Below, piece after piece: positions 5,046-35,500 of a DNA stretch of 64,000 nucleotides; within the stretch, counting starts at the first letter, position 1, and each line of letters opens with the position of its first letter. Below the pieces are notes generated by a model that did not search any database, had not been told where the DNA came from, and saw nothing but the letters and a program-made list of their open reading frames with translations. The stretch is from Thermodesulfobacterium sp. Its GTDB lineage: Bacteria; Desulfobacterota; Thermodesulfobacteria; Thermodesulfobacteriales; Thermodesulfobacteriaceae. The stretch spans positions 62,001-126,000 of the forward strand of contig JACDNX010000004.1 of assembly GCA_017656385.1 (NCBI GenBank), in the 5' to 3' direction. The position numbers and the translations under genes were made by a program.

Positions 5046-6755
5046 ATGTTTCCTTCTAAAAAAAAAGAAATTTTAGAAATATTTAAAAATTTAAAAGTTC
5101 TTATTATAGACGAAGATGGTCCTTTTTTAAAAAATTTATCAATATTCCTTAAAAAGTTTATTCCTGATCTTTTTATTTGCAATTCCTCTACTCAGGCTTT
5201 AGAACTAATCAAAAATGACAGTTTTGATCTTTTAGTTGTAAATTATTGGTCGTCTCATATTAATGGATTTGAGCTGGTGAATTTTTTCAAAAAATGTAAT
5301 CCTGATGCTGGAATTATTTTGTTAACTTCTGAAGATAAACCTTTAGATAGAGAAACAATCAATAATGGTATAGATAAATATATTTTAAAAACTGAGTATG
5401 AAGAAACCAACAAAAAACTGCTAAAAGCTATTGAAGAAATAATTCAGAGAAAATTTTTAAAGGCTTTTCTTTTAAAAAAAAGAGAAACAGAATTGAAATC
5501 TTTTCAAATATTTATGAAATATTTGAGATATCAACAAGAAAAAGCTTTAAAAAAACAAAAAAATATTATAAAAGATGACTTATTTTATTCCACTTATTTA
5601 AATAAGATTCCTTTTCGACAAAAATTTTTTTATTTTCAAACCTTTTATAAGCCCTCGGAAATCATTAGCGGAGACATTTATTCTTTAAGAATATTAAAAA
5701 ATAATAAAATTTTTTTATTTCTTATAGATGTAAAAGAAAAAGGCATCCCTGCCTCAATAACTGCTTCTTCTGTTGCAGCTTTTTTAAATCATTTAGTAAA
5801 TTTACCAAGAATAGAAATAAAAGAGAACCTTTGTACCTGTGAGGATTGGTTTAAGTTTTTAATAAAAGAGTTTTTAATACATATCAAAGCTTATTTATTA
5901 GAAGATGAAGCTCTATGTGCTTTATTCCTATTAATGGATTTGAAAAATAATAAAGTTTTAATAGCTAATTTTGGAATCCCCTCTATTTATATAATCAAAA
6001 ATTCAAATTTAAAAAAGATCTTGCCTCAAAATTTACCTATTCTTACTTCAACTAAAACTTTTAAAATTGATTCTTTAGAACTTTCAAATATAGATAAAAT
6101 TATTATAACCTCTGATGGAACTTTAAATTGCAAGACGAAAGACTCAAAACTTTATATAAAAGATCTTGAAAAAGATCTATTAAATTCTTCTTGTTTAAAT
6201 GAATGGCGAAATTTATTCGAAGAAAAAGTTAAGAAAATTTCAGATGACATAACTTTAATTTATATAAACTCTTGTAAAATAGACGGTTTTTTTAGAAAAG
6301 AATTCAGAATAAAATCTGATTTAGCTGAAATTGATAAATTTTTATCTCAAGTTTATAGAAGACTTAAAAAAAGTAAATATTTTAATTTTTTAGCACCAAA
6401 AATCACTACTATTTTAAATGAAATATTATTAAATGCTCATGAACATGGAACCTTGGGAGTATCTTCTTTGCAAAAAGAGAAAAAAATTATTAATGGAAGC
6501 TACGAAAATTTTCTCCAACAACAACAACAACAACAACAAATTATAATTAAATTCATCTTATCCCTTTCTAAGAAAGAATTATATATCATTGTAGAGGATA
6601 AAGGTAAGGGGTTTAAAAAATCTCTCATCGAAAATACTCTTGAAAGAACTTTTAGTGGATTTGGATTGAAGATAATTAAACATTTATGTAAAGATTTCTT
6701 TTTCAATAAAAAAGGAAACACAATTGTTGCTATAGTTGATATTAAAAGAAAGTAA
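5046..6755 (+). CDS. receiver(degenerate)-PP2C phosphatase-HATPase kinase, partner-switch regulator
   Basis: 569 residues. A receiver domain (about 15-135) keeps the acidic pocket (IIDED), the Thr of LLTSE and the Lys of ILKTE, but the phospho-acceptor Asp is Asn66 (VVNYW). A SpoIIE/RsbU PP2C domain (about 185-405) keeps [20 protein letters not shown] and SDDITL. A GHKL kinase domain (about 420-565) has [17 protein letters not shown] and GFGLKII. The order matches HsbR of Pseudomonas and CrsR of Shewanella, which both phosphorylate and dephosphorylate a STAS partner. The partner here is most likely the gene just upstream. The gene is extremely AT-rich. Its tail overlaps the convergent receptor-like gene by 14 bp. 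Confidence 0.88.
6516..6539 (+). repeat. (CAA)8 microsatellite encoding eight glutamines
   Basis: Eight perfect CAA codons in the HATPase domain of the partner-switch protein. They lie between the N-box helix and the next core strand, where the fold has a loop. Copy-number change by slippage would keep the reading frame and alter only loop length. Confidence 0.95.
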
Positions 6756-7974
6756 CATCTTCTGTGGTCTTTTTTTCTTTTTCTTTCTCAAATTCTAAAA
6801 GAGTTTTTCGAGCAATCTCTCTTTCTTTTTCCATAGTATAGTGATTTTCAAGTTCTTTTATAATTTCTTCTTTTACACCTATTTCTAAGAGTTCGTCTTT
6901 AAATTCTTCTATATGAATCTCTTCTATTTCTTGGTTCATTTTTTCAATAATATTTAAAATGTGTTGATTCATTTGTTTAGTAATATCTTCAAATTGTAGA
7001 TTAACAATTATTTGATTAATATTTTCGTATATATTGGTATGTTTTACCATAAAATCTTTTTGTTCATCTTTCATTACTATAATAGTGTTCATTAACTCAG
7101 TTGCCATATTTTGAATCAATCCTAATCTTTTTAAAGTTACAATTGTTTCTTTAGCAAATATATTATATAATTTTTCAAAATTTTTTATATTTTCTTGAAA
7201 TTCTAAAATTCGTTCTTTTATTTCTTTAACAAATTGATTAGTATAATCTGCTAATTTTCTAACTTCATCAGCTACTACTGCGAAACCTCTTCCGTGTTCT
7301 CCTGCACGAGCTGCTTCAATAGTTGCATTTAAAGCTAAAAGTTTGGTTTGTTCAGCAATTTGTGCAATACCTTCGGACATTTCATTAATGTTTTCTATAT
7401 TTTCTACCAATTTCTTAATCCTATATTTTCCAGTTATTTCTTTAGTAAACTCACTATCTTCTACCGAACTTGTGATTTTTTGCAAAAATTTTTTCAATTG
7501 AGCATGAATTTCTTCTGTTTTTTCGAGAGCCACACACATTTTATTTAAATTACATTCTTCTTTATGTTCACAGTCTTTTCCTTCAAATTTGAATTCTAAT
7601 ATCTGACATAAACTAAAATTAACTTTTTTTTGCAAATTATCTATTTTTTCAATATTTAAAGCTGTAGTTTTGTCTAATTCTTCCATAAGTTCCATAAATC
7701 TCTGGACGCTATCCTCTGTAGCAGATTGAATATCAAAAGTTGTGGTATTAATAGTTTCACCAATAACTTTTAGCATTTCTTTTTGTCTTATAAATAACTT
7801 TTTTATTGGAACTAAAACACTGGTAATTTTTTGAAGTTCTTCAAAAACTTTATTTTTAGTTTTTTCTAACTTTTTTATTTTGTTTTGATTTTTAAAGATT
7901 ACGAAAATTAAAATTCCTAACCATAAAACAGTATATCCTAAAAAACCTAACAGAATTATCCACCAATAACTCAC
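6742..7974 (-). CDS. membrane-anchored chemoreceptor-like signalling protein
   Basis: 410 residues. One N-terminal membrane segment (about residues 6-28) is followed by coiled coil and a methyl-accepting signalling hairpin with the tip around [20 protein letters not shown] and [15 protein letters not shown]. There is no periplasmic sensor or HAMP domain, so it probably senses or signals from the cytoplasmic face. A cysteine-rich stretch near residues 122-147 (Cys at [13 protein letters not shown]) could bind metal or respond to redox. Near the C-terminus is [10 protein letters not shown], a motif common in MCP-like proteins of this style. Last gene of the chemosensory operon, 30 nt after cheA. 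Confidence 0.85.
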
Positions 7975-8004: not shown

Positions 8005-10914
8005 TTATACAAGCTTTTCGGGGTTTAAGACCAAAACTACTTTCCCATCTCCCATTATGCTTACACCTGATATAATTTCAATGTTTGAAAGTGTCTCTGG
8101 AACTGGCTTAATAGCTATTTCTGTTTTCTTATAAAGTTTATCAATCAAAACTCCAAAACTACCATTTCTAGTTTTTAATACAATAATGGGTAATTCTATA
8201 TTTTTATCATATTCCAATCTGAAAGTTCTCTCTTTTTGATAAAGTAAATTTGTTAATTTTTCACAAGGTAAAATTGAACCTCGATAATAAATACCTATTC
8301 TATCATGAATTCTTCTTATTTTAGAAGCAGGAATTTTTAAAGTTTCTAAAATATAATCAATAGGAATAGCAAAGATTTTATTATTTTCTTCTATTAGAAG
8401 GGCAGATGTTATACCAATGCTTGCAGGGATTACTAAAGTAACTTCTGTACCCCAATCTTTTTCTGAGCTAATATATACCTTTCCACCTAAGGATTCTACT
8501 GTAGTTTTAACTACATCCATCCCGACACCGCGTCCTGAAATATCTGTAACTTCTTCTTTAGTGCTAAATCCTGGCATAAAAATAACATTTAAAAGCTCTG
8601 GATCATCTGGTGATTGAAAAGTGAAGCCCTTTTCTTTAGCTTTTTCAAAAAGCTTTTCTCTGTCAATTCCTTTTCCATCGTCAATTATCTTAATAATAAG
8701 ATTACTTCCTTCTTGAAAAGCATTTAAAATAACTGTACCTTCTTCTGGTTTCCCTTTGGCTTTTCTTTCATCAGGAGGTTCAATTCCATGATCACATGCA
8801 TTTCTAACTAAATGAATTAAAGGATCAGAAAGCATATCTGCAACTTTTTTATCTATTTCTGTCTCCTCTCCCTCAGTAATAAATTTTATTAATTTGCCTT
8901 GTTTTCTTGCTATATCTCGAACTGCTCTATGGAATCTCTGAAATATATTCTTTATAGGGATCATTCTCAGAGACATTACACCCTCTTGGAGACTGTAAGA
9001 GAGTCTGGTAAGTTGATAAAGATTATCTTTAAATGCACGTAAAAATTGTCTATCAAGCTCAAAAAGATTAATTAAAGAATTTAATAAATATTCATAAGTA
9101 TTCCTTACTACCACTAATTCCCCTATAAGATTGGTTAAATTATCAATCTTTCTTTCATCAACTCTCATTGTTTTAATTTCTTCTTCTGCCTTAACAGTAA
9201 CCTTAGAACTAAGCTGAGCACCTGTTTCCATAAGTTTCTGCTTTTGGAGTGCTTCTTGCACATCTTCTTTTTTAATCTTTCCTTCTTCAATCAAAATTTC
9301 CCCTATCTTTTTCTGTTTAGATAAAGCTTCTTTTAAATCTTTTTCAGTAATTTTTCGATCTTCTAATAAAATTTCACCTAATTTTTTAACTCCTCCAGAT
9401 AAAAGACCTTCTAAAAAGGCTTCAATGCTTTTTAATTCTTTCTGAAAATCTTCAATCTTTTTCTCTTCATGAAGAGATAACGCTCTTTCTACCATTTGAG
9501 AAAGAGTATAAAGTCCAATATAAGAAGCTGAAGATTTTATACTTCTCAAAGCTCTTAAAATAATTTTTAAATTCTGCTCATCTAAACCCTTAGGAAGATA
9601 AATTTTTATGATATCTCTAAATTGAGAAGCCTGATCCAAAAAAATGTTAAGTGTGTCTTCCGGAGGCAAAGTTTCCTTAGATAAGATTGGTTCCTCCTTT
9701 AAAGGTTCTTTAGAAGATAAAATCTCTTTTAACTCACTTTCTACCTGATGAATAGTAGAAGGATACCCTTTATTAGTTTTTAAATTAACAATAGTAATTC
9801 TCAGAATATCTATAGCTTTCAACAAAGTATCTATAATTGTTGGAGTTCTTTTAACTTTTCCAGATCTTAATCTCTCAAGGAGTGTTTCCAAATTATGACA
9901 AAATTTAGCTAAAACATTTAGACCAATATAATCAGCATCTCCTTTTAAAGTATGCACAGCTCTAAAAATTGCATTTAACGCTTCTAAAGAATTATCCTTT
10001 TCATAAGCAAGGATATTTTTTTCTATAGTGTCTAAAGCTTCAAAAGCATCTATCATGAATTCATTAAAGACATCTTTATCTATAGCTTCAAAAGGAATAA
10101 ATTCTTCAGCTTCCTCAGGAACTTTAAACTGTAATGATAAGTCTATAATTTCAATTAAAGTTTCATCAAAAACTAAATCTTTTATCTCTTCTGTATTTAA
10201 ATCTGTTGCGATATAAATTACAGGTTGCAAATAAAGAGTTAAAGGATTAAAATCCTTTATAGGAGGAACGGTGGAAATATCTGTTATAGCTTGATAGTAA
10301 ACTGTATTGGATTTTAGATTTTTAAGAAAAATTAAAGGATCAAAACCATTTATGTATTCATCTGTAGTATATTTTACCAATATTTTATATACTTTATAAC
10401 CTCTTTCATAATAATCCTTTAAATTTTCAACTATATCTAAAGGTATTTCTTCTCTTTTAATAGAAATTGCTTCTTCTTTATGTATTTTTTCAGAAGTTTC
10501 GATGTCTCTAATATTTTCAGATTCTTTGCTTGGAATAGCAAAACTTTTAAATTTTTCTATTAATTCATAATTTATTTCTGGTTTAAGTCCTTTTTCACAA
10601 TCTTCAATCATTTTAGCTATATAATCAAGTCCATTTAAAATTATATCCACAATTTCAGAGGTAAGTTGTATTTCTCTATTTCTTAATTTATCAAGCAAAG
10701 TTTCTAAATGATGAGCAAATTCTGATATTTCTTCCAGTTCAAATCCACCTGCACTTCCTTTAATAGTATGAACCCCTCTAAAGATAGAATTAAGGAGTTC
10801 TATATTATCAGGTTCTGTTTCAGCTTTTAAAACATCTTCGGTTGCCTTTTCTATAATTTCTTTAGCTTCTACATAGAATTGTCTACGATAATATTCCATT
10901 TCATCCATCATCAT
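8005..10914 (-). CDS. cheA: CheA histidine kinase with three Hpt-like domains
   Basis: 969 residues from the ATG at 10914, preferred over the GTG at 10923 because AAGGGG lies about 8 nt upstream. Domains in order: Hpt 1 (phospho-His49 in HTIKGSAG); Hpt 2 (His321 in HTLKGDADYIG); a third Hpt-like bundle whose His is Arg457 (RSIKSSASYIG); two tandem repeats of the LGEIL/KITEKDLKEAL type at about 505-560; then dimerisation, HATPase (HLVRNACDHG, DDGKGID, GRGVGMDVV) and C-terminal CheW domains. It phosphorylates CheY and CheB partners encoded around it. Long multi-Hpt CheA proteins are typical of non-classical chemosensory systems. It is the only CheA in the window. Confidence 0.97.
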   Translation of the reverse strand: MMMDEMEYYRRQFYVEAKEIIEKATEDVLKAETEPDNIELLNSIFRGVHTIKGSAGGFELEEISEFAHHLETLLDKLRNREIQLTSEIVDIILNGLDYIAKMIEDCEKGLKPEINYELIEKFKSFAIPSKESENIRDIETSEKIHKEEAISIKREEIPLDIVENLKDYYERGYKVYKILVKYTTDEYINGFDPLIFLKNLKSNTVYYQAITDISTVPPIKDFNPLTLYLQPVIYIATDLNTEEIKDLVFDETLIEIIDLSLQFKVPEEAEEFIPFEAIDKDVFNEFMIDAFEALDTIEKNILAYEKDNSLEALNAIFRAVHTLKGDADYIGLNVLAKFCHNLETLLERLRSGKVKRTPTIIDTLLKAIDILRITIVNLKTNKGYPSTIHQVESELKEILSSKEPLKEEPILSKETLPPEDTLNIFLDQASQFRDIIKIYLPKGLDEQNLKIILRALRSIKSSASYIGLYTLSQMVERALSLHEEKKIEDFQKELKSIEAFLEGLLSGGVKKLGEILLEDRKITEKDLKEALSKQKKIGEILIEEGKIKKEDVQEALQKQKLMETGAQLSSKVTVKAEEEIKTMRVDERKIDNLTNLIGELVVVRNTYEYLLNSLINLFELDRQFLRAFKDNLYQLTRLSYSLQEGVMSLRMIPIKNIFQRFHRAVRDIARKQGKLIKFITEGEETEIDKKVADMLSDPLIHLVRNACDHGIEPPDERKAKGKPEEGTVILNAFQEGSNLIIKIIDDGKGIDREKLFEKAKEKGFTFQSPDDPELLNVIFMPGFSTKEEVTDISGRGVGMDVVKTTVESLGGKVYISSEKDWGTEVTLVIPASIGITSALLIEENNKIFAIPIDYILETLKIPASKIRRIHDRIGIYYRGSILPCEKLTNLLYQKERTFRLEYDKNIELPIIVLKTRNGSFGVLIDKLYKKTEIAIKPVPETLSNIEIISGVSIMGDGKVVLVLNPEKLV

Positions 10915-10926
10915 ATTTAACACCCC

Positions 10927-11295
10927 TTATCCTATAATTTTCTTTACTACACTTACGAGGACATCTGGTTTAAAAGGTTTTACAATCCAAGCTTTAGCTC
11001 CTGCTTTCCTTCCTTCTTCTTTTTTGGCTTCTTGACTTTCTGTAGTGAGCATTATTACTGGAATAAATCTATACTTCATATCTGCTTTTAAAGTTTTAAT
11101 TAGTTCTATTCCATCCATATTAGGCATATTTAAATCGGTAATTATTAAATCTACCTTACCTACCGAAGAAAGTTTGGTAAGAGCATCTTTTCCATCAGAA
11201 GCTTCTACAACCTCATATCCGCTTTTCTTCAAAGTCATAGCGACTAATCCTCTCATAGAAGCAGCATCATCTACAATAAGAATTTTTTTACCCAT
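10927..11295 (-). CDS. cheY: CheY-like response regulator
   Basis: 122 residues, a receiver domain alone. It shows the acidic pair (VDDA), phospho-acceptor Asp in IITDLNMPNMDG, Thr in MLTTES and Lys in VKPF. There is no output domain, so it acts by protein contact, for instance with the flagellar switch or other partners. It lies 4-12 nt from cheA and the STAS gene and is the likely phosphoryl acceptor of this CheA. Alternative: a sink for phosphate. Confidence 0.95.
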   Translation of the reverse strand: MGKKILIVDDAASMRGLVAMTLKKSGYEVVEASDGKDALTKLSSVGKVDLIITDLNMPNMDGIELIKTLKADMKYRFIPVIMLTTESQEAKKEEGRKAGAKAWIVKPFKPDVLVSVVKKIIG

Positions 11296-11584: not shown

Positions 11585-11956
11585 TTATTCTCCTCCTAAA
11601 AGCATTTTAATATGTGTAATTAAAGCCTGAGGTTTAACAGGTTTTACTATATACAAATTAGCTCCCGCTTCGTATCCTTTTTGCCTATTAATAGCTTCTT
11701 CTTGAGTGGTAATAATAATTATGGGTGTTTCTTTATCTAATTCTCTATACTTCTTAATAAAAGTTAATCCATCCATTCTTGGCATATTTATATCACAAAG
11801 AATTAAATCATATTCATCTGTTAAAGCTTTTTCCAAAGCCTCCACTCCATCTGCAGCACCATCTACTTGAAAACCTGCTGATTTTAAAATATTTCCATGA
11901 AAACTTCTAACTACATGGGAATCATCTACTATTAAAACCTTTCTTATCTCCTTCAT
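11585..11956 (-). CDS. cheY: CheY-like response regulator
   Basis: 123 residues, single receiver domain with VDDSH, phospho-acceptor Asp in LILCDINMPRMDG, Thr in IITTQE and VKPVKP. The sequence differs clearly from the other CheY in the operon, for example in the HVVRSFHGNILKSAG first helix, so the two are not recent duplicates and may have different targets. It is followed by the STAS gene and preceded by cheR at 4 nt. Confidence 0.95.
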   Translation of the reverse strand: MKEIRKVLIVDDSHVVRSFHGNILKSAGFQVDGAADGVEALEKALTDEYDLILCDINMPRMDGLTFIKKYRELDKETPIIIITTQEEAINRQKGYEAGANLYIVKPVKPQALITHIKMLLGGE

Positions 11957-11960
11957 AACT

Positions 11961-12800
11961 TTACTCCTTAGTATAAACTATATGTCCTCCTAATTTTTTA
12001 ATTTTAAAGGCATTGGTAATACGAGCTAAAGATTCGGAACTTCCAAGAAAAATATATCCTCCTTTATTTAAGGCAATATAAAAATGGTCCACTACTTTTT
12101 TGCGGGAGATTTCATCAAAATAGATAAGAACATTTCTACAAAAAATGAAATCAAAACCCCGCTTTTTTCTTAAACTTAAAAAATCCATTAAATTTAAATG
12201 CTCAAATTTAACCAATTTTTTAACCTCATCTTTTATTTTGTATTTATCTTTTATTATTTTAAAATATTTCTTTATATATTCTGTAGGAACATGTTTTACA
12301 CTTCTCCATTCATAAATACCCTCTTGAGCTTTTCTCAAAGCTTCCTTATCAATATCAGTTGCTAAAATTTCAATACTCCAGCTATTAACATCTTCTAACA
12401 TTTCGTATAAAATAATCGAGATAGTATAAGGTTCTTCTCCTGTGGAACAACCTGCTGACCAAATCTTTAAATTATCATCCCCTATTTTTATCTTTTTTTT
12501 TAATAGTTCAGGCAAACAGTATTCTGCAAAGGCTTGAAGTTGAGGAAAATCTCTAAAAAAATAGGTCTCATTTATAGTAATAAGATCAACTAAATTTTGG
12601 AGTTCCTCACCGTTTTTATCCCCAAATTTAAGTCTCCTTAAATAAGCAATGGGATCTGTAATACCCAATTCCTGCATACGTTTTTCTATTCTCTTAGAAA
12701 GAAAATAGAATTTTTTTTGATCAAAACGGATACCAGTTTTTCTATAAATAAAATCTGCAAATTTTTCAAAATCTTCTAAAGTAAGATTAATTCCCTCCAT
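11961..12800 (-). CDS. cheR: CheR chemoreceptor methyltransferase
   Basis: 279 residues from the ATG at 12800, which has GAGGG about 8 nt upstream; a longer start at 12815 is less likely. An N-terminal helical CheR domain is followed by the SAM-binding domain with WSAGCSTGEEPYTISI, LATDIDKEAL, and FDFIFCRNVLIYFD. It methylates Glu residues of the receptors, opposing CheB. It overlaps the end of the HEAT-repeat gene by 14 nt. No TPR tail is attached. Confidence 0.96.
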   Translation of the reverse strand: MEGINLTLEDFEKFADFIYRKTGIRFDQKKFYFLSKRIEKRMQELGITDPIAYLRRLKFGDKNGEELQNLVDLITINETYFFRDFPQLQAFAEYCLPELLKKKIKIGDDNLKIWSAGCSTGEEPYTISIILYEMLEDVNSWSIEILATDIDKEALRKAQEGIYEWRSVKHVPTEYIKKYFKIIKDKYKIKDEVKKLVKFEHLNLMDFLSLRKKRGFDFIFCRNVLIYFDEISRKKVVDHFYIALNKGGYIFLGSSESLARITNAFKIKKLGGHIVYTKE

Positions 12801-13680
12801 TAAAACAACCCTCACTTAAATAGGTTTTTAGTCCTTCCTCTACAGTAGGGTCATCTTTAATGTATTGATAAATATTATGAATTTGCTCTAATTTTTTTAA
12901 TTCTGGAAATCTTTGACAGATTTTAATTAAAAAATCTATTAAATCGTAAGCATAAACTGGATCATATTTAACAATCTCTAATAAATACATAATATCATCT
13001 TTTTCTCCTAAATCTGCTACTAATTTCATAAGTTCTGGCAAGAAAATTATATTCTCCTCTGTAACCTTTTTTTCAGGTAACACCATTTCGATAATATCTT
13101 TTATTTTGAATCCTTCTTTTATTTCTCTTAAAGCATGTAAAATTGAAACCCTAAGCATGGGCTCAGGATCTTTTTTAAAAAGTTCTATTAATTCTGGCAA
13201 ACTTTCTTTATCTCTTAATTTTCCTAAGTATTCTACAGCTGTAATTTGAACATTTTTAGAAGAATCATAAAGAGAAGCTCTTATAGCCATAAGAGCTGAT
13301 GGTGTGCCAAGCCCAACTAAACTATCTAAAATAAGTTTTCGAACTTCTTTATTAGAGTGATCAAGTTTAGAAGCTAAAAAGGCTACAGCTCCTTCTTTAT
13401 CTGAACTTGAAGCAAAAATTTCTACAGCTGCATTTCTTAAATAGGCATCTGGAGAAGAAAATAGTTCAAAAAGTCTTTCATAAATAGAAGAAATATCCAT
13501 ATTTTTTAAAGCTTCTACTATAGCGTCTTTAACCGCTATGCTTTCGTCAGTGATTAATTTTTCGACTAAATCTGGAAGAAGTTCAGTAATATTATTGTCC
13601 ATAATATCATGCACTGTATAAATTCTTTCAGCTTCGTCTGGATGGTTTAATTTTTTTCTTAATTCTTCTACACTATCCAT
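12787..13680 (-). CDS. HEAT-repeat protein of the che operon
   Basis: 297 residues from the ATG at 13680, which has GGAGGG immediately upstream; the TTG at 13701 is a weaker choice. The protein is a run of roughly five to six HEAT/PBS-lyase-type helical repeats with recurring patterns such as DPEPMLRVSILHAL and SSDAYLRNAAVEIF-like units. Such repeats are protein-binding scaffolds. HEAT proteins occur in some chemosensory operons between cheB and cheR, as here; a role in organising adaptation enzymes is inferred from position. Confidence 0.85.
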   Translation of the reverse strand: MDSVEELRKKLNHPDEAERIYTVHDIMDNNITELLPDLVEKLITDESIAVKDAIVEALKNMDISSIYERLFELFSSPDAYLRNAAVEIFASSSDKEGAVAFLASKLDHSNKEVRKLILDSLVGLGTPSALMAIRASLYDSSKNVQITAVEYLGKLRDKESLPELIELFKKDPEPMLRVSILHALREIKEGFKIKDIIEMVLPEKKVTEENIIFLPELMKLVADLGEKDDIMYLLEIVKYDPVYAYDLIDFLIKICQRFPELKKLEQIHNIYQYIKDDPTVEEGLKTYLSEGCFNGGN

Positions 13681-13697
13681 AAGTCCCTCCAAAGCTA

Positions 13698-14786
13698 TCA
13701 ATTAGCTAAACGATTTACCGCTTTTATTATTTCTTCTGCTATTTGATAACTTGGAGCTATAATTTCAGCTCCTCCCCTTTCTATAGCTTCCTTAGGCATA
13801 CCGAACACTATAGCTGTTTCTTCAGATTCTGCGATAGTAACACCACCTGCTTTTCTTATTTTTACCATAGCATTAGCCCCATCATCTCCCATTCCTGTAA
13901 GAAGAACCCCTACAGTATTCCTTCCAAAAACATTTAAAACTGATTCCATCATTATATCTACAGAGGGTATGAAAAGATGAGGGGGGTTAGTAGAAAGTCT
14001 TATTCTAATAACCTCTGATGCTTTTTTCAGTAAAAGATGATATCCACCTTTTCCTAAATATCCACGAGATTTTTTAACAACATCTCCTGCTTCAGCTTCT
14101 TTAATAAAAATTTGAGAATAGGCATCTAATCTTTTAGCAAAAGAATTAGTAAAAGATGGAGGCATATGTTGAACAATAAATATTGCAGCAGGAAGATCTG
14201 CAGGTAATTCCGGAATAATATCCATTAAGGTTTTAGGACCTCCAGTAGAAGCTCCTATAGCTACTGCTACAGGAATTTCTTTGGCAATTTCTTTTATTTC
14301 TGGTATAGATGGTTTAACAACTTTTCTTCTGGGAGGAATTCTTTTTCTAACTTTTTTAAAAAGTTTATAAAAAATTAATTTCTTTTTAGCTGCTGCCTTT
14401 ACTTTTTCTATAATTTCATCAGCTACTTGTTTTAAATTTAGTGATATAGTCCCCCCTGGTTTAGCAACATAATCAAAAGCTCCTAATTCTAAAGCTTGAA
14501 AAGTAATTTCAGCTCCTTCTTGGGTCAATGAACTTACCATAACTACTGGACAAATTTCTTCTTCTACAATATACTTTAATACAGTTAATCCATCCATACC
14601 CGGCATATTTACATCTAATGTAATCACATCAGGTTCGAGTTTACGTGCCTTTTCTAAGGCATCTTCCCCATCTCGAGCTGTAGCTATTACTTCTATTTCA
14701 GGATCTGATTCCAAAATTTCTCTTAACATTTTTCGCATTAAAGCTGAATCATCAACTACCAGAACCCTAATCTTCTTTTTCATCAT
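13698..14786 (-). CDS. cheB: CheB chemoreceptor methylesterase
   Basis: 362 residues: receiver domain (VVDDSALMRK, phospho-Asp in ITLDVNMPGMDG) joined to a methylesterase domain from about residue 165. The catalytic triad is visible: Ser in GASTGGPKT, His in IVQHMPPSFT and Asp in LTGMGDDGANAM. It demethylates or deamidates receptors when phosphorylated by CheA. The start overlaps the CheW gene by 20 nt and AAGGATA precedes it. Confidence 0.97.
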   Translation of the reverse strand: MMKKKIRVLVVDDSALMRKMLREILESDPEIEVIATARDGEDALEKARKLEPDVITLDVNMPGMDGLTVLKYIVEEEICPVVMVSSLTQEGAEITFQALELGAFDYVAKPGGTISLNLKQVADEIIEKVKAAAKKKLIFYKLFKKVRKRIPPRRKVVKPSIPEIKEIAKEIPVAVAIGASTGGPKTLMDIIPELPADLPAAIFIVQHMPPSFTNSFAKRLDAYSQIFIKEAEAGDVVKKSRGYLGKGGYHLLLKKASEVIRIRLSTNPPHLFIPSVDIMMESVLNVFGRNTVGVLLTGMGDDGANAMVKIRKAGGVTIAESEETAIVFGMPKEAIERGGAEIIAPSYQIAEEIIKAVNRLAN

Positions 14787-16677
14787 CTTTTATCCTTTTA
14801 AGTGTTTTTTTCTTTCTTTTAGGTTTTTCAGAAGGTTTTTCAGAAGAAGGTTCTGGAACTGTAGTTTCTTCAGAAGACATTAAAGTTTCTAATTTTTCTT
14901 TTTCTTCATCACTTAAAACATTCAAAATATCTATTACTAAAATTATTTTATCTTTTTTTTCCAGTTTGCAAATTGCTTTAATGAAACGAGTATCTATATT
15001 TTCAGCAATAATTTCTGGTGGAGTCTCTAAACTATTCTTTGAAATTCTTAAAACCTCAGAAACTGAATCTACTACAAAACCAACTAATTTATCTTGCAAT
15101 TTTACTATAATTACTTTGGTCGTTTCATCATATGGGCGAAATTCCATTTCAAATCTTTTTCTTAAATCAATAACAGGGATTACATTTCCTCTAAGATTCA
15201 TAACACCTTCTACAAAATAAGGAGCTCTTGGAACAGAAGTTATACTTTCCACTCTGTTAATTTCCTGAACATCTTCTATAGGAATAGCAAAATCAACTTC
15301 AGCAAGTCTAAAGGTAACTAATTGAATTTCTTCTGTAACTGTAGTAACTTCTTTTTCTAATTTTTCTTCTTTTTTAACCATTTCCTTCAACTCCTCAATA
15401 GTTTTTTTATCAAATAAGCTTTCTTCAGAAATAAGCATAATAATTCTCTTTCCTTCTTCCAATTTTGCTATACCTTTTAAATTGTCACTTTTTTCAGTTT
15501 TTAAAATCTCAGGCGGTTTTTCTATAGAATCTTTAGCCACTCTGATTACCTGTTTTATTCTATCTACTAAAATACCTATAGGGGTATTAAAGATTTCCAG
15601 CACCAAAATTCTTTGATCTTCTTTAATGTCTTCAGAAATAGCTTCCTTTAAATTTTTAAAATGCCTTTTTAATTTTTCAAATACAGGTAACATGTCATTT
15701 TCAAAAAATTGCAGGGCTGATTCTTTACTATGTTCTTTAACTTTTTGTAAAGTTATTTTAGCCAGTTCATGAAAAAGTTGATGGTCTTTTTTCATAACCT
15801 CGATAGTTTGATTTATCTTTTCACTTGAAGTAATAAATCTTTTCATCCACAAACCAAAGCCACATTTATCAGGATCAAGTTCACCTCTAAAGGGACTTCC
15901 TGTTTCTATGGAATTTTTTAAATCTCTTACAAAATCTTCGTGTTCTTTCAAAATTTTATCTACTTCCTGATTTACATCTCTGGCTAAATCTGAAAAACCG
16001 AATAATTTTCTTAAATCTATTACAGGAAGTAAAGTATCTCTTACAGCCAAAATTCCAAGAATATATTCAGAAGTTTCTGGAACTTCAGTAATATTACCCA
16101 CTCTCAAAATTTCTTTTACTATTTCTATAGGAAAAGCATATTCTTCCCCAGCAATTGAAAAAGTAACTAATTGAACTTCCTCTATATGCTTTTTTTCTTC
16201 TTCCTTTTCCTCTTTGAATACTTGAGTACTTCTTTTAGTTTCTGAAGCGGTTATCTCAATCTTACATAAATTTTCTAAATTAAGTTTAAGAATAAGCTGA
16301 CCGTTTTTCCTTATAACTCCAGAAATATATTCCTTTTCTATTTCAGAAGATAAAACTTGAGGAGGTGGCTCAACTTCATTCTCTTCCACATCTATTACTC
16401 CCTTTACCTGATCTACTATTAATCCCAAAAAAGTTTTACCTATATCTAAGATTAATACCCTGGTATGAGGAGTAATTTCTATATTAGAAATATCCAACTT
16501 AATACGAGTATCAATAACTGGAATAATAATTCCTCTTAAATTAGCCAGACCTTTTAAATATTTAGGGGCTTTGGGAACCTCGGTAATTTCTGGATATCTT
16601 ATAATCTCTTTTATTAAATTAGTATCTATACCAAATATTTCTTTTCCTAATTGAAAAGTAACTATTTGGTTTCCCAT
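14767..16677 (-). CDS. triple-CheW coupling protein with nested zinc-binding CZB domain
   Basis: 636 residues with three CheW domains: about 1-140, 168-405 (interrupted) and 440-605, then a charged tail rich in Pro/Ser/Lys. Each CheW has the LRG/VRD turn and PVID strand. Between the two halves of the second CheW lies a CZB domain (about 243-345) with all four expected zinc ligands: His246 (HEDF), Cys272 (DPDKCGFGLW), His299 and His303 (DHQLFHEL). CZB domains bind zinc and respond to zinc or oxidants; CheW links receptors to CheA. This would place an input sensor in the coupling protein. RBS GGGGGGAA precedes the ATG. Confidence 0.93.
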   Translation of the reverse strand: MGNQIVTFQLGKEIFGIDTNLIKEIIRYPEITEVPKAPKYLKGLANLRGIIIPVIDTRIKLDISNIEITPHTRVLILDIGKTFLGLIVDQVKGVIDVEENEVEPPPQVLSSEIEKEYISGVIRKNGQLILKLNLENLCKIEITASETKRSTQVFKEEKEEEKKHIEEVQLVTFSIAGEEYAFPIEIVKEILRVGNITEVPETSEYILGILAVRDTLLPVIDLRKLFGFSDLARDVNQEVDKILKEHEDFVRDLKNSIETGSPFRGELDPDKCGFGLWMKRFITSSEKINQTIEVMKKDHQLFHELAKITLQKVKEHSKESALQFFENDMLPVFEKLKRHFKNLKEAISEDIKEDQRILVLEIFNTPIGILVDRIKQVIRVAKDSIEKPPEILKTEKSDNLKGIAKLEEGKRIIMLISEESLFDKKTIEELKEMVKKEEKLEKEVTTVTEEIQLVTFRLAEVDFAIPIEDVQEINRVESITSVPRAPYFVEGVMNLRGNVIPVIDLRKRFEMEFRPYDETTKVIIVKLQDKLVGFVVDSVSEVLRISKNSLETPPEIIAENIDTRFIKAICKLEKKDKIILVIDILNVLSDEEKEKLETLMSSEETTVPEPSSEKPSEKPKRKKKTLKRIKDDEKED

Positions 16678-16692
16678 TTTTATTCCCCCCTT

Positions 16693-18645
16693 TTACATAC
16701 TTTGCAATTCATCAGCAAGAGAAGCTATCTCTTCTATAGCTTGAGAAAGTTCTTGGACTCCTCTGGCTTGCTCTTCTGCGGCTGCAGCTGCTTCTGCAAC
16801 AGCTTTAGCAGCTTCTTCAGCTGCTGAGGCAATTTGATCTATAGCCTTTTTAGATTCTTCAATAGCTTTTAAGGATTCCTGAGAAAGATCTAAACTTTCT
16901 TTAAGTGCTTTAAGTATATCTTTCATATCTTCTTCTATTTTAATAAAAGATTGAGATGCCACTTTTGATTTTTCTGCTTCCCCTTTAGCAGTTTTAGCAG
17001 CAAGTTCTATTTCTTGCATACATACATTAATTAAATCTTGTAAATTTCTTACCAAATCTTTAATTTTGTCTGCATTTTCTGCTGATTCTGTAGCAAGATT
17101 TCTTATATCACTTGCTACTACAGAAAAACCTTTACCGTATTCTCCAGCTCGGGCTGCTTCAATAGAACCGCTTACAGCAAGCATATTAGTTAAAATTGTT
17201 ACATTCATAATAACCTCAACTATTTTTTCAATCTTTCTGGTGTGTTTTTCTAAAATTTTTATATTTTCCAAAGCTCTTAAATTATCTTCAGCAGATTGTT
17301 TAATATTTTCAATCATATTATCCACATTGATTTTATTCTCAGCTAACAATTTGCTGACCTCTTCACAATCTTTTACAAGTTGATTTGCTCTACCTTCTAT
17401 TTGTTTGGCAGAAGCTACAAGTCTTTCTGCTATCTCATCGGCATTTTGAGCTTCTTTGGCTTGAAGTTCTGAAGCGGTTTTTATTTGATCAATAGCTTGA
17501 GCAAGTTCTTGAGCAGCTGTACTGGTTTCTTCTATATTAGCAGAAAGCTCCTCTGCCATAGCAGCTACTTCTTCAGCAGATTTTTTAGTATCTGTAGAAG
17601 TTTTTAATTCTTCAGCTACTTGTGCTAATTCTTGAGAAGCTATAGACATCTCACTAAATGCTTTGGCTTGCATTTCCGTCCCTTTTCTTGCTTCTTCTGC
17701 TGAAGATGCAAGCTCTTCTGCTGCTGTAGCAATTTGTTCTGCACTTTTCAAAAAGTTTTTTGCTTCATCTGAAGACCTATTTGCTACATTTACTATTTCT
17801 TCAGTTGCTTTAAAAAACTCATCCATTTTTTGAACTATATTTCTTAATTCCTCTCTTATTGTTTTTCCTTTTTCAGCCTCATTTTTAGCATTATTACTTA
17901 TTTGATTAATTTCATCTACTACTGTTCTTACTGAATTTTGAATTTCTGCCACTAATTCTCTTATATCTCGAGCACTTTTCTCCGAAGTTTCAGCAAGATT
18001 TCTAACTTCATCAGCTACTACTGCAAAACCTCTTCCGTGTTCCCCTGCACGAGCTGCTTCAATAGCTGCATTTAAAGCTAATAAATTGGTTTGATCAGCA
18101 ATCCTTACTACTGCTTGAACAATATTTCCTATTTCCTCGGATTGTTTTTCAAGTTCTTCCATCAGTTTAGAAGTTTCAAGAGCGGCTTCAGAGGCATTAT
18201 GAACACCTTCAATTAAGAGTTCAATTTGAGAAGAAGTATCTTCGATTAAATTTTTAATACTTTTTACTTTTTCTAAATTCTGTTGAGCATTTTGAGCTAT
18301 TCTTGCAGAGCCCTTTTCTATTTGAACTACAGACGCACGAATTTGTTCAGAAGCACCACTTGCTTCTTCAGCACCAGCAGCAATCTGTTCCATAGAACGA
18401 TTAAGTTCTTCTGCAGCAGCACTTGATTCTTCAATAGCTGAAGCAAGCTCTTCTGACGCTGCAGCTATTCTTTCAGCTATTTGCTGCTGTTTAGCAAGAG
18501 TTCGAGCACGAGCTTTTTCCTGAGCAAGTTTTTTAGCTTTCTCTCTTTTAAGAGACAAACCTTCTTCTTCAGCTATCCCTTTAGGATGCTCTTCTGGTTT
18601 AGCTAAACCTTTAGATTTAATCCCTAATTTTTTTTCTTCAGCCAT
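16693..18645 (-). CDS. cytoplasmic chemoreceptor with two tandem signalling hairpins
   Basis: 650 residues, nearly all alpha-helical coiled coil. There is no membrane segment and no ligand-binding domain; the first 50 residues are a charged Lys/Glu/Ala-rich leader. Two receptor tips occur: a canonical one near residues 180-215 ([20 protein letters not shown]) and a diverged one near 480-515 ([20 protein letters not shown]). The helices are rich in Ala-Ala-Glu-Glu, typical of methylation helices. Preceded by AAGGAGGGGGG and by a FliA-type promoter. Probably the core receptor of a soluble array with the triple CheW. Confidence 0.92.
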
Positions 18646-18733: not shown

Positions 18734-19177
18734 TTATCTCTCAGACTGCAAAATTTGTAAATTTTCTTTAAGAATGGAATTCTCTGGAAAATTTTTTATT
18801 CCCTCTTTAAGAATTTTAATCGCCTCTTCCTCTCTCCCTACTTCAGCATATAATACTGCTAAATTATTTATTGCTTTTGCATTAGGTTTTAATAAATTAG
18901 AAAGACGATAATAAAATATAGCTTCTTCAATTAAACCTTCATCCTCACATCTTAAACCTATTCTAAAAAACAAACGGGAAAGCTCTGGAATATTTTTAAA
19001 AAATTGAACTATCAACTGATGAGTTTCCTGAAGCAGAAAATTGATATCTTTTTCTTTAAGTGCAACTTTAACATTTTTTATACTTTCTAAAATTTCAGGA
19101 ATTTCAGGATAAACTTCAGAAACTTGAAAAAGTATATTTTCTTTTATTAACTCTTTAAGTTTTACACCTTTTGCCAT
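18734..19177 (-). CDS. TPR protein linked to ParA and chemoreceptor
   Basis: 147 residues. The C-terminal half carries about two tetratricopeptide repeats (FYYRLSNLLKPNAKAINNLA and the following AVLYAEVGREEEAIKILKEG); the N-terminal half is helical and not recognised. Its ATG comes right after the parA stop, so the pair is translationally coupled. By analogy with adaptor proteins that connect ParA-like ATPases to cytoplasmic arrays it could be the array-ParA link; this is inferred. Confidence 0.75.
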   Translation of the reverse strand: MAKGVKLKELIKENILFQVSEVYPEIPEILESIKNVKVALKEKDINFLLQETHQLIVQFFKNIPELSRLFFRIGLRCEDEGLIEEAIFYYRLSNLLKPNAKAINNLAVLYAEVGREEEAIKILKEGIKNFPENSILKENLQILQSER

Positions 19178-19179
19178 CT

Positions 19180-19926
19180 TTAAACTCCTAAAAGAAGTTC
19201 TTCAGCAAGCATGTGAAAATCGTAGGCAGCTTTGGATCGAGGAGCATATAAAATAATTGGAAGTTGATGCCAAGCAGCTTCAGATATTTTTATATCTATC
19301 CTAATACCTCTTTTGATAACATCATTTCCAAATGTATCTTTTAACTCTTTTAAAATTGCATTAGCGTGTTTGGTTCTCATATCAACCATTACCGGGATAA
19401 TGCCAGATAAAATAATATTAGGATTATATTTTTCAGAGATAGTATATAAAAGCCCTAATAATTGAGCCAGACCTTCCATTGCAAGAAATTGAAGAGGCAT
19501 AGGAACCATAAGTTCGGTAGAAACCGAAAGACAAAAAGTTAAAATATCTTCTCTTCCTGGAGGAGTATCTATTAAAATAAAATCGTATTTTGAACTTATT
19601 TCAGAAAATATATCTTTATACTTCAACTCAGAACCATAAAGTATATAAGAATTGTCTTTATGAAACGAAGGAATTATATCAAAAAGTTTATGAGAGGGAG
19701 TTTTTATTAGATTTTCAATATGAAAATTATTAAAAAGTGAACCTGCTCCTTTTAAAGGAGAATAAGGATTAAGCCCTGAAATTAAAGTAGCATGACACTG
19801 AGGATCTAAATCAACCACTAAACATTTTTTACCTTTATTGCCAAGAGCAGCTGCTAAATTAACTACTGTAGTAGTTTTTCCACTACCTCCTTTTTTATTT
19901 GCAAATGTAATAATTCTTACACTCAT
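19180..19926 (-). CDS. ParA/MinD-family ATPase, probable chemosensory array positioner
   Basis: 248 residues with the deviant Walker A KKGGSGKTT, the DLDPQ motif and LIDTPPG (Walker B). No HTH or ParB is encoded nearby, arguing against plasmid partition. ParA-type proteins encoded in chemosensory operons (PpfA of Rhodobacter, ParC of Vibrio) segregate or polarly place arrays, and this gene leads straight into a cytoplasmic receptor gene. No Shine-Dalgarno is visible before the ATG; instead a large inverted repeat occupies the leader, suggesting control there. Confidence 0.88.
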   Translation of the reverse strand: MSVRIITFANKKGGSGKTTTVVNLAAALGNKGKKCLVVDLDPQCHATLISGLNPYSPLKGAGSLFNNFHIENLIKTPSHKLFDIIPSFHKDNSYILYGSELKYKDIFSEISSKYDFILIDTPPGREDILTFCLSVSTELMVPMPLQFLAMEGLAQLLGLLYTISEKYNPNIILSGIIPVMVDMRTKHANAILKELKDTFGNDVIKRGIRIDIKISEAAWHQLPIILYAPRSKAAYDFHMLAEELLLGV

Positions 19927-20175: not shown

Positions 20176-21864
20176 TTAACGGGGATTTGAGGATAAACTT
20201 TCAAATTCTTCTATGGGCATAGGTTTAGCTAAATAAAATCCCTGTAAATAATCTACTCCGAGAATATAAAGCAAATCTGAAAGTTTTTCCTCTTCTACAA
20301 ATTCAGCAATAGTTTTAATTCCCAGTTCTTTAGCCATCAAAACTATAGCTTTTATTATACTAAAGTATTTCCTTGATTTTAAAATCCCTTTAACGATGGA
20401 TCCGTCTATTTTTAAGAAATCAACTTCACTACTTAATAAATAAGAAAAAGAAGCATAACCTGCTCCAAAATCATCTATGGCAAGATAAATCTTTTCTTCT
20501 TTTATAGCTTTTGTCAGCATAGGTAATAATTTAATATTTTCTATAAAAGAATTTTCAGTAATTTCAAATACTGGATAAACCTCATATTTTTCAACTATTT
20601 CTTTTAAAAATTCTACCTGTTTTATAAGAGCATTTATCTTCTCTATTCCTTTCACAGTTTTATTAATGAATAAATACCTATTCTTAAATAGTTTTAAAAA
20701 TTTTTCTTTATTTATTTTTTCAAACAATATATTCTCAAGTTCATCAATATAACCTTTTTCATTAGCAATTTGTATAAACTTTTCCGGCTTAACTATTTCT
20801 CCTTTCCCATCAAAAATTCTAAGTAAAACTTCACCACCTATTATTTTTCTTTTTTCTGAATCAAAAATAGGTTGAATAAAAGGAATTACTTTTTTTTCAG
20901 AAATTGCTTTTTCCAATAATTTACTAATATGATTAATTTCTTTAATTTCTTCCAAAAATTTTTTATTAAACAGTTTCCAAGTATTTTTACCTTCAGACTT
21001 GGCTTTTTTTAATGCTATTTCACAAGCTCTAAGAAGTTCAGAAACAGTTTCACCATCCTTAGGATAAAAAGCAACTCCTAAGGAGGCTGTAATTTTTATA
21101 GATTCTCCTTTATATTTAAATTCATATTTTCTCACTAAATCCATTGTATTTTCTATTAATTCTAAGGATTCTGTGAATGTATAATCATAAAAAGCTATTA
21201 AAAACTGATCTCCTTCTGCCTTTCCTAAAAAACACTTAGGTATGATTAGTTCATTTATTAAATAATTAGTAAAATCGTTAAGTAAAACGTCCCCCAAATC
21301 AAAACCATATTCAAGATTTATTTCCAAAAAATTATCTATATCAAGTAAAATAACAATGATATTTTTATTTAATAGTGTGTATTTATTTAAAAGTGCTAAA
21401 AATTTATCTTTTGAAAGAATGCGCGTATCAATTTCTTCAAAGATATCCCTTTGAAAGGGTTGATATTCCTCTAACTTTTTTTTCAAAAAATCAACAAACT
21501 TTTTGTCAAATTCTTTTAAATGTGTGTGAGGAAACTTTTCAAAAAGTTCTAACACATCAATTAAATATTCTTTTCCTTTTTCTTTTTTTGTTAAAATTTC
21601 TCTTATTTTCCTTTTTTCAAATTCATGTTCCTTTTTGTGGTTTTCCAATTCGGGATAACCAACTTTTTCCATTAAGGTTTCTTCAGTAGCTATATGATTT
21701 ATAATCACCTTAAAAATTTCATCTAAAATTTTATCTATTTTTTCTTTTGGATATCCAGACCTATTTGCAAAGTAAAGGAAATTCATTAAATCTAATAGTT
21801 CTTTATGTTGCTCATCTATTTTTTTAATTTCTAAAACTAATTCTTTCCACTCTGCAATATTCAC
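20176..21864 (-). CDS. bacteriohemerythrin-GGDEF(degenerate)-EAL protein
   Basis: 562 residues from a GTG start with GGAGAG upstream. Residues 1-135 are a bacteriohemerythrin with the full di-iron ligand set: IDEQH, HIATE, HKKEH and HLKEFD. A GGDEF domain (about 150-300) reads EGDQF, losing the first Gly and the catalytic Glu. The EAL domain (about 310-560) has EVLLR for EALLR, then Asn, ITENS, DDFGAGY, KIDGS, AEFVE and QGF, so metal ligands are largely kept. Expected role: oxygen- or NO/redox-controlled breakdown or binding of c-di-GMP in the cytosol. It stands alone, 250 bp upstream of the chemosensory operon on the same strand. Confidence 0.9.
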   Translation of the reverse strand: MNIAEWKELVLEIKKIDEQHKELLDLMNFLYFANRSGYPKEKIDKILDEIFKVIINHIATEETLMEKVGYPELENHKKEHEFEKRKIREILTKKEKGKEYLIDVLELFEKFPHTHLKEFDKKFVDFLKKKLEEYQPFQRDIFEEIDTRILSKDKFLALLNKYTLLNKNIIVILLDIDNFLEINLEYGFDLGDVLLNDFTNYLINELIIPKCFLGKAEGDQFLIAFYDYTFTESLELIENTMDLVRKYEFKYKGESIKITASLGVAFYPKDGETVSELLRACEIALKKAKSEGKNTWKLFNKKFLEEIKEINHISKLLEKAISEKKVIPFIQPIFDSEKRKIIGGEVLLRIFDGKGEIVKPEKFIQIANEKGYIDELENILFEKINKEKFLKLFKNRYLFINKTVKGIEKINALIKQVEFLKEIVEKYEVYPVFEITENSFIENIKLLPMLTKAIKEEKIYLAIDDFGAGYASFSYLLSSEVDFLKIDGSIVKGILKSRKYFSIIKAIVLMAKELGIKTIAEFVEEEKLSDLLYILGVDYLQGFYLAKPMPIEEFESLSSNPR

Positions 21865-25169: not shown

Positions 25170-25994
25170 TTAATCCTTTTTACGATAACAAACTGTTTTC
25201 CCGATAATCTTTTTTTCCATGTCAGAAAAGCTTAAAGCTGGTATTTCAGTTGCTCCCAAAAGCAAATATCCTCCAGGATTCAGCATCTTCCAGAGCTCCG
25301 TTAAAACCTTTTTTTTAACTTCATCAGAAAAATAAATTAAAACATAACGACAAAGGATAAGATCAAATTTTTCAAAAATCTTTTTAGAAGCTTCTAACAG
25401 ATTAACTCTTTCAAATTTTACTAATTTTTTTACATTATCATTTATACACCAGTGAGCTCCGTCCTGTTTAAAATATCTTACTAAAAAGTTAATAGGAAGA
25501 CCTCTGTTAATTTCAATCTGATTATAAATTCCTTTTTTAGCTTTTTCTAAACACTTTGCAGAAATATCAGTACCTAATATGTAAACCCTGTATTTTTGTA
25601 AATAAAGTGAAAAGTGTTCTAATAAAAGCATTGCTATACTGTAAGGCTCCTGTCCTGTGGAACAACCTGCTGACCATATGGTAATTTTTCTTTCTCTTTC
25701 TCTTTTTTTAAATAACTCTGGTAAAATGTGTGTTTTAAGTGTTTCAAATGGATGATAATCCCTAAAAAAATAAGTTTCATTTGTTGTTAAGGCATCTATA
25801 ATTTCATTTAATAGCTTTAAATCTGCTCCTTTTTTTGTTATAGCCTGATAAAGATCGCTTAAATCTTTGTATCCTAAGGTAAGAGCCAGTTCGTTTAATC
25901 TGCTTTCAATTAAATACTCTTTTCCTGTAGTATAGGATATTCCTGATACTCTTTCTAAAAGGGCTGTAAAAAATTCAAAAACCTTTGCATCCAT
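25170..25994 (-). CDS. cheR: CheR chemoreceptor methyltransferase, second copy
   Basis: 274 residues from the ATG at 25994, one nt after the cheB stop; a TTG start at 26009 is possible. It shows NETYFFRDYHPF, WSAGCSTGQEPYSIAM, LGTDISAKCL and FDLILCRYVLIYF. The sequence is clearly distinct from the other CheR in this window, so it belongs to a second adaptation set. No kinase or receptor is encoded next to it; it may serve receptors elsewhere in the genome. Confidence 0.95.
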   Translation of the reverse strand: MDAKVFEFFTALLERVSGISYTTGKEYLIESRLNELALTLGYKDLSDLYQAITKKGADLKLLNEIIDALTTNETYFFRDYHPFETLKTHILPELFKKRERERKITIWSAGCSTGQEPYSIAMLLLEHFSLYLQKYRVYILGTDISAKCLEKAKKGIYNQIEINRGLPINFLVRYFKQDGAHWCINDNVKKLVKFERVNLLEASKKIFEKFDLILCRYVLIYFSDEVKKKVLTELWKMLNPGGYLLLGATEIPALSFSDMEKKIIGKTVCYRKKD

Positions 25995-25995
25995 T

Positions 25996-27036
25996 TTAGT
26001 TATACCCAAAAAGCTCTTTTAATCTTTCAGGAATTTTAGAAAGATTAACAACTTCATCTGCTAAACCAGCTTCTATTACTGCTCTGGGCATACCAAATAC
26101 AATAGAACTTTCTGCATCTTGAGCCAAAACCACACCTCCTTTTTCTTTTATCTTCTTTGCTCCTTCCTTTCCATCACTTCCCATACCAGTTAAAATTAAA
26201 GCCAATGTATTTCCATTATAATTTTCTGCTAAGGACTCAAAAAGTTCATCAACTGAAGGTCTACAAAAATTGCGAGGAGGCCCTTTATGTAATTTTATTC
26301 TAACTAATGCATTTTCTCTTTTTACTTCCATGTGGTAATCTCCTGGAGCAATATAAACTACTCCGTTTTTAACTGGTTCTCCTTCTTCTGCTTCTTTTAC
26401 TATAAGTCTGGAGAGAGAATTAAGTCTATCTGCTAACTGTGCAGTAAAAAATGGAGGCATGTGTTGAACGATAAGTATTGGTGCAGGAAAAGTAGGAGGT
26501 AGTTCTGGAATTATTTTTAACAAAGTCTGAGGACCTCCTGTTGAAACTCCTATTCCACATACTTTATAAATACCTTTTTTTATCTTTGGGGTAATGTATG
26601 TTGGTCTGTATATCGGCTTAAATTCTTTTAAAGGTTGAATACTCTTTATTTTTGGAATAAGATCTTGCTCTATTTTTTTTATACTCTCCGAAAAAGACTT
26701 GCTTGAAGGTTTAGGAACAAAATCATAGGCTCCAATTGTTAAACACTCTATAGTTGCTTTAGCACCTTCCTGAGTAAGTGAAGAAAACATAATAACCTTT
26801 GTTTGAGGAACTTCTTTTCTTAATACCCTTAAAGCAGTTATTCCATCCATTTCTGGCATCTCTATATCAAGAGTAATAACATCAGGTTTTAAATTTTTAG
26901 CCTTTTCTATAGCTTCTTTTCCTGTCTTTGCAGTATCAACCACCTCTATCTCTGGGTCATTTTTTAAAATATCTACAATTAATTTCCTCATTATAGGTGA
27001 ATCATCTACTACCAATACTTTTATTTTCTTACTCAT
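25996..27036 (-). CDS. cheB: CheB chemoreceptor methylesterase, second copy
   Basis: 346 residues: receiver with VVDDSPIMRK and ITLDIEMPEMDG, then esterase with Ser of GVSTGGPQT, His of IVQHMPPFFT and Asp of LTGMGSDGKEG. It is shorter in the linker than the other CheB here. It is coupled to cheR downstream and cheY upstream, at the end of the flagellar operon. Confidence 0.96.
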   Translation of the reverse strand: MSKKIKVLVVDDSPIMRKLIVDILKNDPEIEVVDTAKTGKEAIEKAKNLKPDVITLDIEMPEMDGITALRVLRKEVPQTKVIMFSSLTQEGAKATIECLTIGAYDFVPKPSSKSFSESIKKIEQDLIPKIKSIQPLKEFKPIYRPTYITPKIKKGIYKVCGIGVSTGGPQTLLKIIPELPPTFPAPILIVQHMPPFFTAQLADRLNSLSRLIVKEAEEGEPVKNGVVYIAPGDYHMEVKRENALVRIKLHKGPPRNFCRPSVDELFESLAENYNGNTLALILTGMGSDGKEGAKKIKEKGGVVLAQDAESSIVFGMPRAVIEAGLADEVVNLSKIPERLKELFGYN

Positions 27037-27038
27037 AG

Positions 27039-27410
27039 CTAAGAAAGCTCCATAAGATATTTTATTTTTACTTCCAACATCTCTTTATCAAAAGGTTTCA
27101 TAAGATATTCATTTGCCCCAGCCATAATGGCATCAATTATACTTTTTTGCTGATTCTCTGTGGTTACCATCATAACCTTAACATCTGACCATTTTGGATT
27201 AGCACGCAGTTTTAATAAAAATTCGTATCCGTTCATAACAGGCATGTGCCAATCAAGCAATATCAACTTTATATCTGAGTTATCCTCCAAAATCTTTAAA
27301 GCCTCTTCTCCATTTGATGCCTCTAAAACCTCAAATCCCATTTCCTCCAAATATTTTTTTTCTATCTCCCTTATTGCCTTGGAATCATCTACTACCAATA
27401 CTTTATACAT
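27039..27410 (-). CDS. cheY: CheY-like response regulator
   Basis: 123 residues, receiver only: VVDDSKAIRE, phospho-Asp in LILLDWHMPVMNGYEFL, Thr in MVTTEN, LMKPF. The Trp-His after the Asp and MNGYE are typical of CheY forms paired with CheB/CheR in delta-like bacteria. Probably the receiver that serves the second adaptation set. Confidence 0.95.
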   Translation of the reverse strand: MYKVLVVDDSKAIREIEKKYLEEMGFEVLEASNGEEALKILEDNSDIKLILLDWHMPVMNGYEFLLKLRANPKWSDVKVMMVTTENQQKSIIDAIMAGANEYLMKPFDKEMLEVKIKYLMELS

Positions 27411-27419
27411 TCTTTACCT

Positions 27420-28223: not shown

Positions 28224-28238
28224 AAATTTTTACCCTTT

Positions 28239-28547: not shown

Positions 28548-28557
28548 ACTCCACTTC

Positions 28558-29343: not shown

Positions 29344-29344
29344 C

Positions 29345-29728: not shown

Positions 29729-29749
29729 ATTCCCACACCTCTTTTTAAT

Positions 29750-30484: not shown

Positions 30485-30485
30485 C

Positions 30486-31277: not shown

Positions 31278-31292
31278 AAAGCCTCCCATATT

Positions 31293-32303: not shown

Positions 32304-32306
32304 TTT

Positions 32307-34376: not shown

Positions 34377-34389
34377 AAAAGGTCACCTA

Positions 34390-35496: not shown

Positions 35497-35500
35497 TTTT

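Follow-up and report, generated by a model that had tools for sequence, protein, structure and literature searches.

What does a chemoreceptor do that carries two signalling tips in one chain, with neither a sensor nor a membrane part? The question is raised by a gene at 16693..18645 on the minus strand of a 64,000-nucleotide stretch of Thermodesulfobacterium sp. DNA (assembly GCA_017656385.1, contig JACDNX010000004.1, positions 62,001 to 126,000; hereafter the window). Its product, a double-signalling-domain chemoreceptor of 650 amino acids encoded in a single open frame with an ATG start, belongs to the DosM family of receptors within the F9 chemosensory class, a kind already known. Very probably, it forms a long dimeric rod whose tips dock in the opposite baseplates of a double-layer array.

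Membership in F9 follows from gene content, since DosM and CheW3, the two signature components of the class (PMC9321776), are adjacent here. The locus combines tandem methyl-accepting chemotaxis protein (MCP) domains, an adjoining CheW3 (14767..16677, minus strand, a 636-residue chain with three CheW domains by Pfam and structure prediction), a receptor free of sensor and membrane segments, and a full gene set with its own CheA and CheY. MCPsignal is the sole Pfam family above its curated cut-off in the receptor (241.8 bits, in three stretches), and in a whole-genome search with this family the two halves, scored apart, reached 132.7 and 94.2 bits. No sensor family was matched in a Pfam search of the 650-residue chain, and hydropathy over the whole chain revealed no membrane segment (19-residue Kyte-Doolittle maximum of 1.6), which bears out what an earlier note on this DNA had claimed on both counts. 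A sensor concealed in the N-terminal 30–50 residues was considered and rejected, as no family matched; model confidence is low there. The Lys/Arg-rich N-terminal tail could be a candidate binder of ParA or DNA. In a set of 97 distinct complete DosM proteins (80 from a motif scan and 17 from homology searches), a 19-residue stretch above 1.7 was found in the rod part of only five (L056, L061, L106, L137 and L146).

The same note had placed two hairpin tips about 300 residues apart, and the spacing is exactly 300 residues within one open frame. Tip 1 (hairpin residues 179–225, 17971..18111, minus strand; tip stretch 185–207) has the canonical LALNAA and His203, while tip 2 (hairpin residues 479–525, 17071..17211, minus strand; tip stretch 485–507) has the diverged LAVSGS and Tyr503, so that the SGS for NAA and Tyr for His read earlier were both correct. 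Tip 2 further departs from tip 1 by L188 to M488, L191 to V491, A193 to G493 and E213 to D513. It retains a glutamate and an arginine matching trimer contacts E385 and R388 of Tsr.

The odd second tip, LAV-x-G, is a hallmark of the DosM family, and SGS is one form of this family trait. Among 18 DosMs found by homology with no motif used for finding (17 from homology searches plus L152), tip 1 has LNAA and tip 2 has V-x-G in all 18. Of 88 listed DosMs, 70 have Phe or Tyr at position 503 and 71 have His at the matching tip-1 position; for 80 of these 88, V491, G493 and the tip-2 letters EAARAG were required by the scan that found them. No earlier description of the tip-2 signature or of the fixed spacing was met in the literature searched; the primary DosM paper (PNAS 2016), outside that search, may hold one.

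A tree was built from the 18 DosM proteins cut in halves and 30 single-tip receptors of the same phylum, on only 120 columns. The control group excluded half-1 fragments from truncated or split DosM frames (L050, L063, L073, L091, L098 and L152), and six of the 36 control sources contributed no distinct sequence that could be used. All DosM halves fall on one side (support 100/97) and half 2 forms one group (100/100), and the tree thus fits a single ancient internal duplication, after which the second tip diverged. Half 1 as a single clade is not settled on these 120 columns (p-value of 0.07 in the approximately unbiased test). The two tips may serve different partners.

The spacing between the tips is 300 residues in 91 of the 97 complete proteins listed, and in L152, added later; the six exceptions have 298 (two), 299 (two), 305 and 403 residues. 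All indels of the five small exceptions lie at residues 352–353 of the window's protein, and the sixth (L036) carries an insert in half 2 with C-x-Y-G-x-W...H-x-x-x-H, CZB-like by motif. Residue 353 is also the midpoint between the turns at 203 and 503. The AlphaFold2 model (mean predicted local distance difference test score of 89.6, from an alignment containing 48 of the complete proteins) has a helix break at 350–352, and otherwise only at the single residue 560. Residues 350–353 (17587..17598, minus strand) are thus the predicted joint, and small differences in length between the tips are confined to it. Because fixed spacing, indels, midpoint and helix break converge there, the pattern reads as a length rule, with two length-locked half-rods of 150 residues joined at the midpoint, and this is a concrete structural prediction.

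Structure prediction had been proposed as a check in the earlier note. Half 2 superposes on known receptor hairpins, residues 348–650 aligning one-to-one over 303 residues with the Thermotoga maritima hairpin 2ch7 (2.8 Å, Z 13.0) and with the Bacillus subtilis McpB model 9a65 (2.0 Å, Z 12.1); such Z scores are within the range of unrelated long-helix proteins, and it is the ungapped register and the 23–25% identity that carry weight. The predicted monomer seems to be folded back rather than rod-like.

For the DosM of Vibrio cholerae (VC1403, whose number adjoins that of the triple CheW VC1402), two signalling domains are described, and cryotomography is reported to show an extended rod that bears one of them at either end and is integrated into both baseplates, 35 nm apart, of a double-layer cytoplasmic array (PMC7534058). 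Like it, the system described here has tandem MCP domains next to a triple CheW, a complete che cluster that includes a CheA of its own, and a membrane-anchored MCP within the cluster, VC1394 there and a 410-residue protein here (PMC7534058). Each half of the present receptor is a complete MCP cytoplasmic hairpin. By homology, the chain would form a long dimeric rod between two facing CheA/CheW3 baseplates, with tip 1 docking on one side and tip 2 on the other. DosM would thereby hold a membrane-free double-layer array at a fixed height, with adaptation presumably through the CheR and CheB of the operon. The suggestion made from the letters, of two CheA/CheW contacts or a layered array, is supported in that it matches what is published for V. 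cholerae DosM and would extend to this protein through its family (PMC7534058, PMC9321776). That idea is itself already known, and the interest here lies in the length rule, the fixed tip-2 signature and a possible baseplate sensor.

Several points weigh against the rod. The likeness to V. cholerae DosM is drawn from its published description. The structural matches of the AlphaFold2 monomer span residues 125–580, symmetric about the midpoint, and, judging from this span, the monomer seems to be folded back with its hairpins side by side. Neither the 300-residue rule nor the baseplate spacing separates a rod from two stacked folded-back layers, which are equally thick. In V. cholerae, moreover, a second cytoplasmic receptor is thought necessary and several candidates are described (PMC7534058), whereas an MCP search of the present genome (an assembly of 44 contigs) revealed no other cytoplasmic receptor.

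The protein might accordingly be a natural single-chain receptor that folds back at 350–353, its hairpins packing as a pseudo-dimer with both tips in one baseplate. The predicted monomer appears so arranged, the helix does break at 350–352, and small indels at the joint suit a turn. Engineered Tsr tandems likewise have two signalling domains per chain, although they are membrane-bound and were designed as covalent dimers whose two tips share a baseplate (PMC4692393). However, when a homodimeric coiled coil is modelled as a single chain, the dimer contacts may form within that chain, which makes the folded-back monomer weak evidence; a free loop would have no need of a joint whose length is kept in 91 of the 97 proteins; and the V. 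cholerae cryotomography, interpreted as an extended rod (PMC7534058), favours the rod over the fold-back, by analogy. I therefore regard a fold-back as unlikely. It is more doubtful still that tip 2 is a degenerate remnant, with only tip 1 binding CheA/CheW3 and half 2 serving as a spacer or an opposite-layer contact. Tip 2 is indeed altered at several positions (M488, V491, G493 and D513), and half 2 is farther from single-tip receptors (mean identity 29%, against 36% for half 1). Yet within the family half 2 falls only a little behind half 1 in mean identity (53.5% against 56.7%), it keeps the glutamate and arginine at the trimer-contact positions, and decay would not preserve one signature across phyla. 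An artefact of gene fusion or sequencing error, which the earlier note had raised as a danger, is refuted for practical purposes: nothing in its favour was found for this gene, the same architecture recurs in 97 distinct listed proteins, and full-length orthologues at 93–96% identity are present in three other genomes of the same genus.

The remaining MCPs of the genome have two predicted membrane segments each (L001, L002 and L003) or one (the 410-residue protein). As DosM is sensorless and the 44-contig assembly showed no further cytoplasmic receptor, it can be speculated that the baseplate itself supplies the input, through a CZB-like insert in CheW3 and MshEN-like motifs in CheA, both of which may set this system apart from that of V. 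cholerae. The insert, residues 231–354 (15616..15987, minus strand), lies in the middle CheW domain and splits it, so that Pfam reports four stretches for three domains. It contains the ligand-like residues H246, C272, H299 and H303, in the His/Cys/His/His pattern of the CZB ligand set. It falls under the curated Pfam CZB cut-off (27.5 against 29.4 bits). The best Foldseek match of the insert outside CheW and CheA chains is 3t9o, the CZB domain of DgcZ (E 0.0093, TM 0.74 on the target); VIA-align gives Z 13.7 and 2.3 Å over 116 residues, values that other four-helix bundles tie. CheW-CZB proteins are a known kind, reported as 1.4% of CZB sequences (PMC8262984), and it is possible that a zinc-sensing part has moved into the partner CheW3.

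The CheA (8005..10923, minus strand, three Hpt stretches by Pfam) carries a pair of MshEN-like cyclic diguanylate motifs at residues 514–562 (9238–9384, minus strand). The pair scores above the NCBIfam cut-off (50.6 against 38 bits) and sits between the Hpt and dimerisation parts, one residue separating the two motifs. An array built from sensorless DosM alone, sensing zinc or redox state through CheW3 and cyclic diguanylate through CheA, is nevertheless a speculative and rather improbable proposal. As part of it, the unlike surfaces of tip 1 and tip 2 may make the baseplates chemically different, and the array would hence be polar. With a genome of 1.67 Mb, a single DosM and CheW3, and no competing cytoplasmic receptor, this would be a simple system for asking what such an array senses, and equally for asking whether two unlike tips serve two unlike baseplates.

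Neither baseplate feature is a general F9 trait. A Pfam CZB match was found in only two of 55 CheW3 proteins at E ≤ 0.01, and a scan for the pattern C..G.W...H...H returned only the window's genus group and L036, with an altered form in L040 and L170. A regular expression for the MshEN-like pair matched one of 16 other CheA frames from regions of the phylum, that of the close relative L161. In the Desulfobacterales DosM at L036:5770-7998 (minus strand), the second half is interrupted by some 100 CZB-like residues, and the CheW3 adjoining this DosM also bears a CZB-like insert.

The gene order of the operon is well conserved. DosM-CheW3-CheB-HEAT-CheR-CheY-CheA was found in all 14 regions of sufficient length among 19 fetched from the phylum, the other five being cut by contig ends, and a CheW3 homologue adjoins DosM in 80 of 88 complete loci listed. 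In the window, all on the minus strand, CheW3 is followed by CheB (13698..14786), a HEAT-repeat protein (12787..13701, by Pfam and gene order), CheR (11961..12815), two CheY-like receivers (11585..11956 and 10927..11295), CheA, and, at the operon end, the 410-residue MCP (6742..7974), which by Pfam and hydropathy has one N-terminal membrane segment and one canonical tip; the che genes were otherwise identified by Pfam.

Upstream of DosM lie, on the same strand, a tetratricopeptide repeat (TPR) protein (18734..19177, Pfam and gene order) and a ParA-family ATPase (19180..19926, family search and gene order), a possible array-positioning factor. The ParA and TPR genes, too, may set this locus apart from that of V. 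cholerae. In six of the 19 fetched regions, several of them truncated at contig ends, a ParA homologue lies close upstream of DosM, in some cases together with the TPR gene. In Rhodobacter sphaeroides, the cytoplasmic cluster is described as positioned by a ParA homologue encoded beside its receptor (PMC3964821), and because of this a positioning role is plausible here. The likeness to that TlpT/PpfA system extends to a cytoplasmic array with two baseplates, but the description of TlpT, which has 567 residues, is that of a classical MCP coiled coil, and the partner role of ParA, shown there, is suggested here by gene order (PMC3964821).

F9 is reported as full in 64 and partial in eight of 2781 species, with 98% of DosM homologues lacking sensors and with many horizontal transfers; it is seldom the sole chemosensory system of a genome (PMC9321776), and a second che system on contig C5 is consistent with this. 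The role of F9 arrays is described as still poorly understood (PMC7534058). A search of 60 genomes gave full-length DosM matches in eight, counting the window's own; of the others, three are from the same genus, at the 93–96% identity given above, and four are more distant, at 46–51%. Across the window's phylum, 16 of 395 sampled genomes, again with its own, gave a match at E ≤ 1e-60, one of them (G222) a cut gene with tip 2 only. Within the genus DosM is patchy (four of 13 other genomes), and the DosM of one member, G007, is 51% identical to the window's and 77% to that of G018 of another genus, which fits horizontal transfer. A motif scan of named genomes returned at least 120 stretches, at least 112 of them MCP frames, in hosts that by record titles include alpha-, beta- and gammaproteobacteria, acidobacteria, Desulfobacterales, clostridia, Paenibacillus and others. 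Six chance matches outside MCPs (L037, L057, L065, L077, L136 and L145) and two without a motif-bearing frame (L087 and L092) were left out; 80 of the 112 listed frames are complete with two tips, and the remaining 32 are split or truncated at the end of a locus or contig. L152, missed by the regular expression, was added by eye, and L158 is cut, with tip 2 only.

Elsewhere in the window, GGDEF-EAL proteins at 20176–21864 and 1704–3755, one with a hemerythrin domain and one with PAS domains, flank the che operon. A protein with a receiver, a SpoIIE phosphatase and a HATPase domain is encoded at 5046–6755 on the opposite strand, just past the operon end. A second CheR, CheB and CheY lie at 25170–36259 beside flagellar genes (FlhA, FlhB, FliR-like, FlhF-/FlhG-like and a sigma factor).
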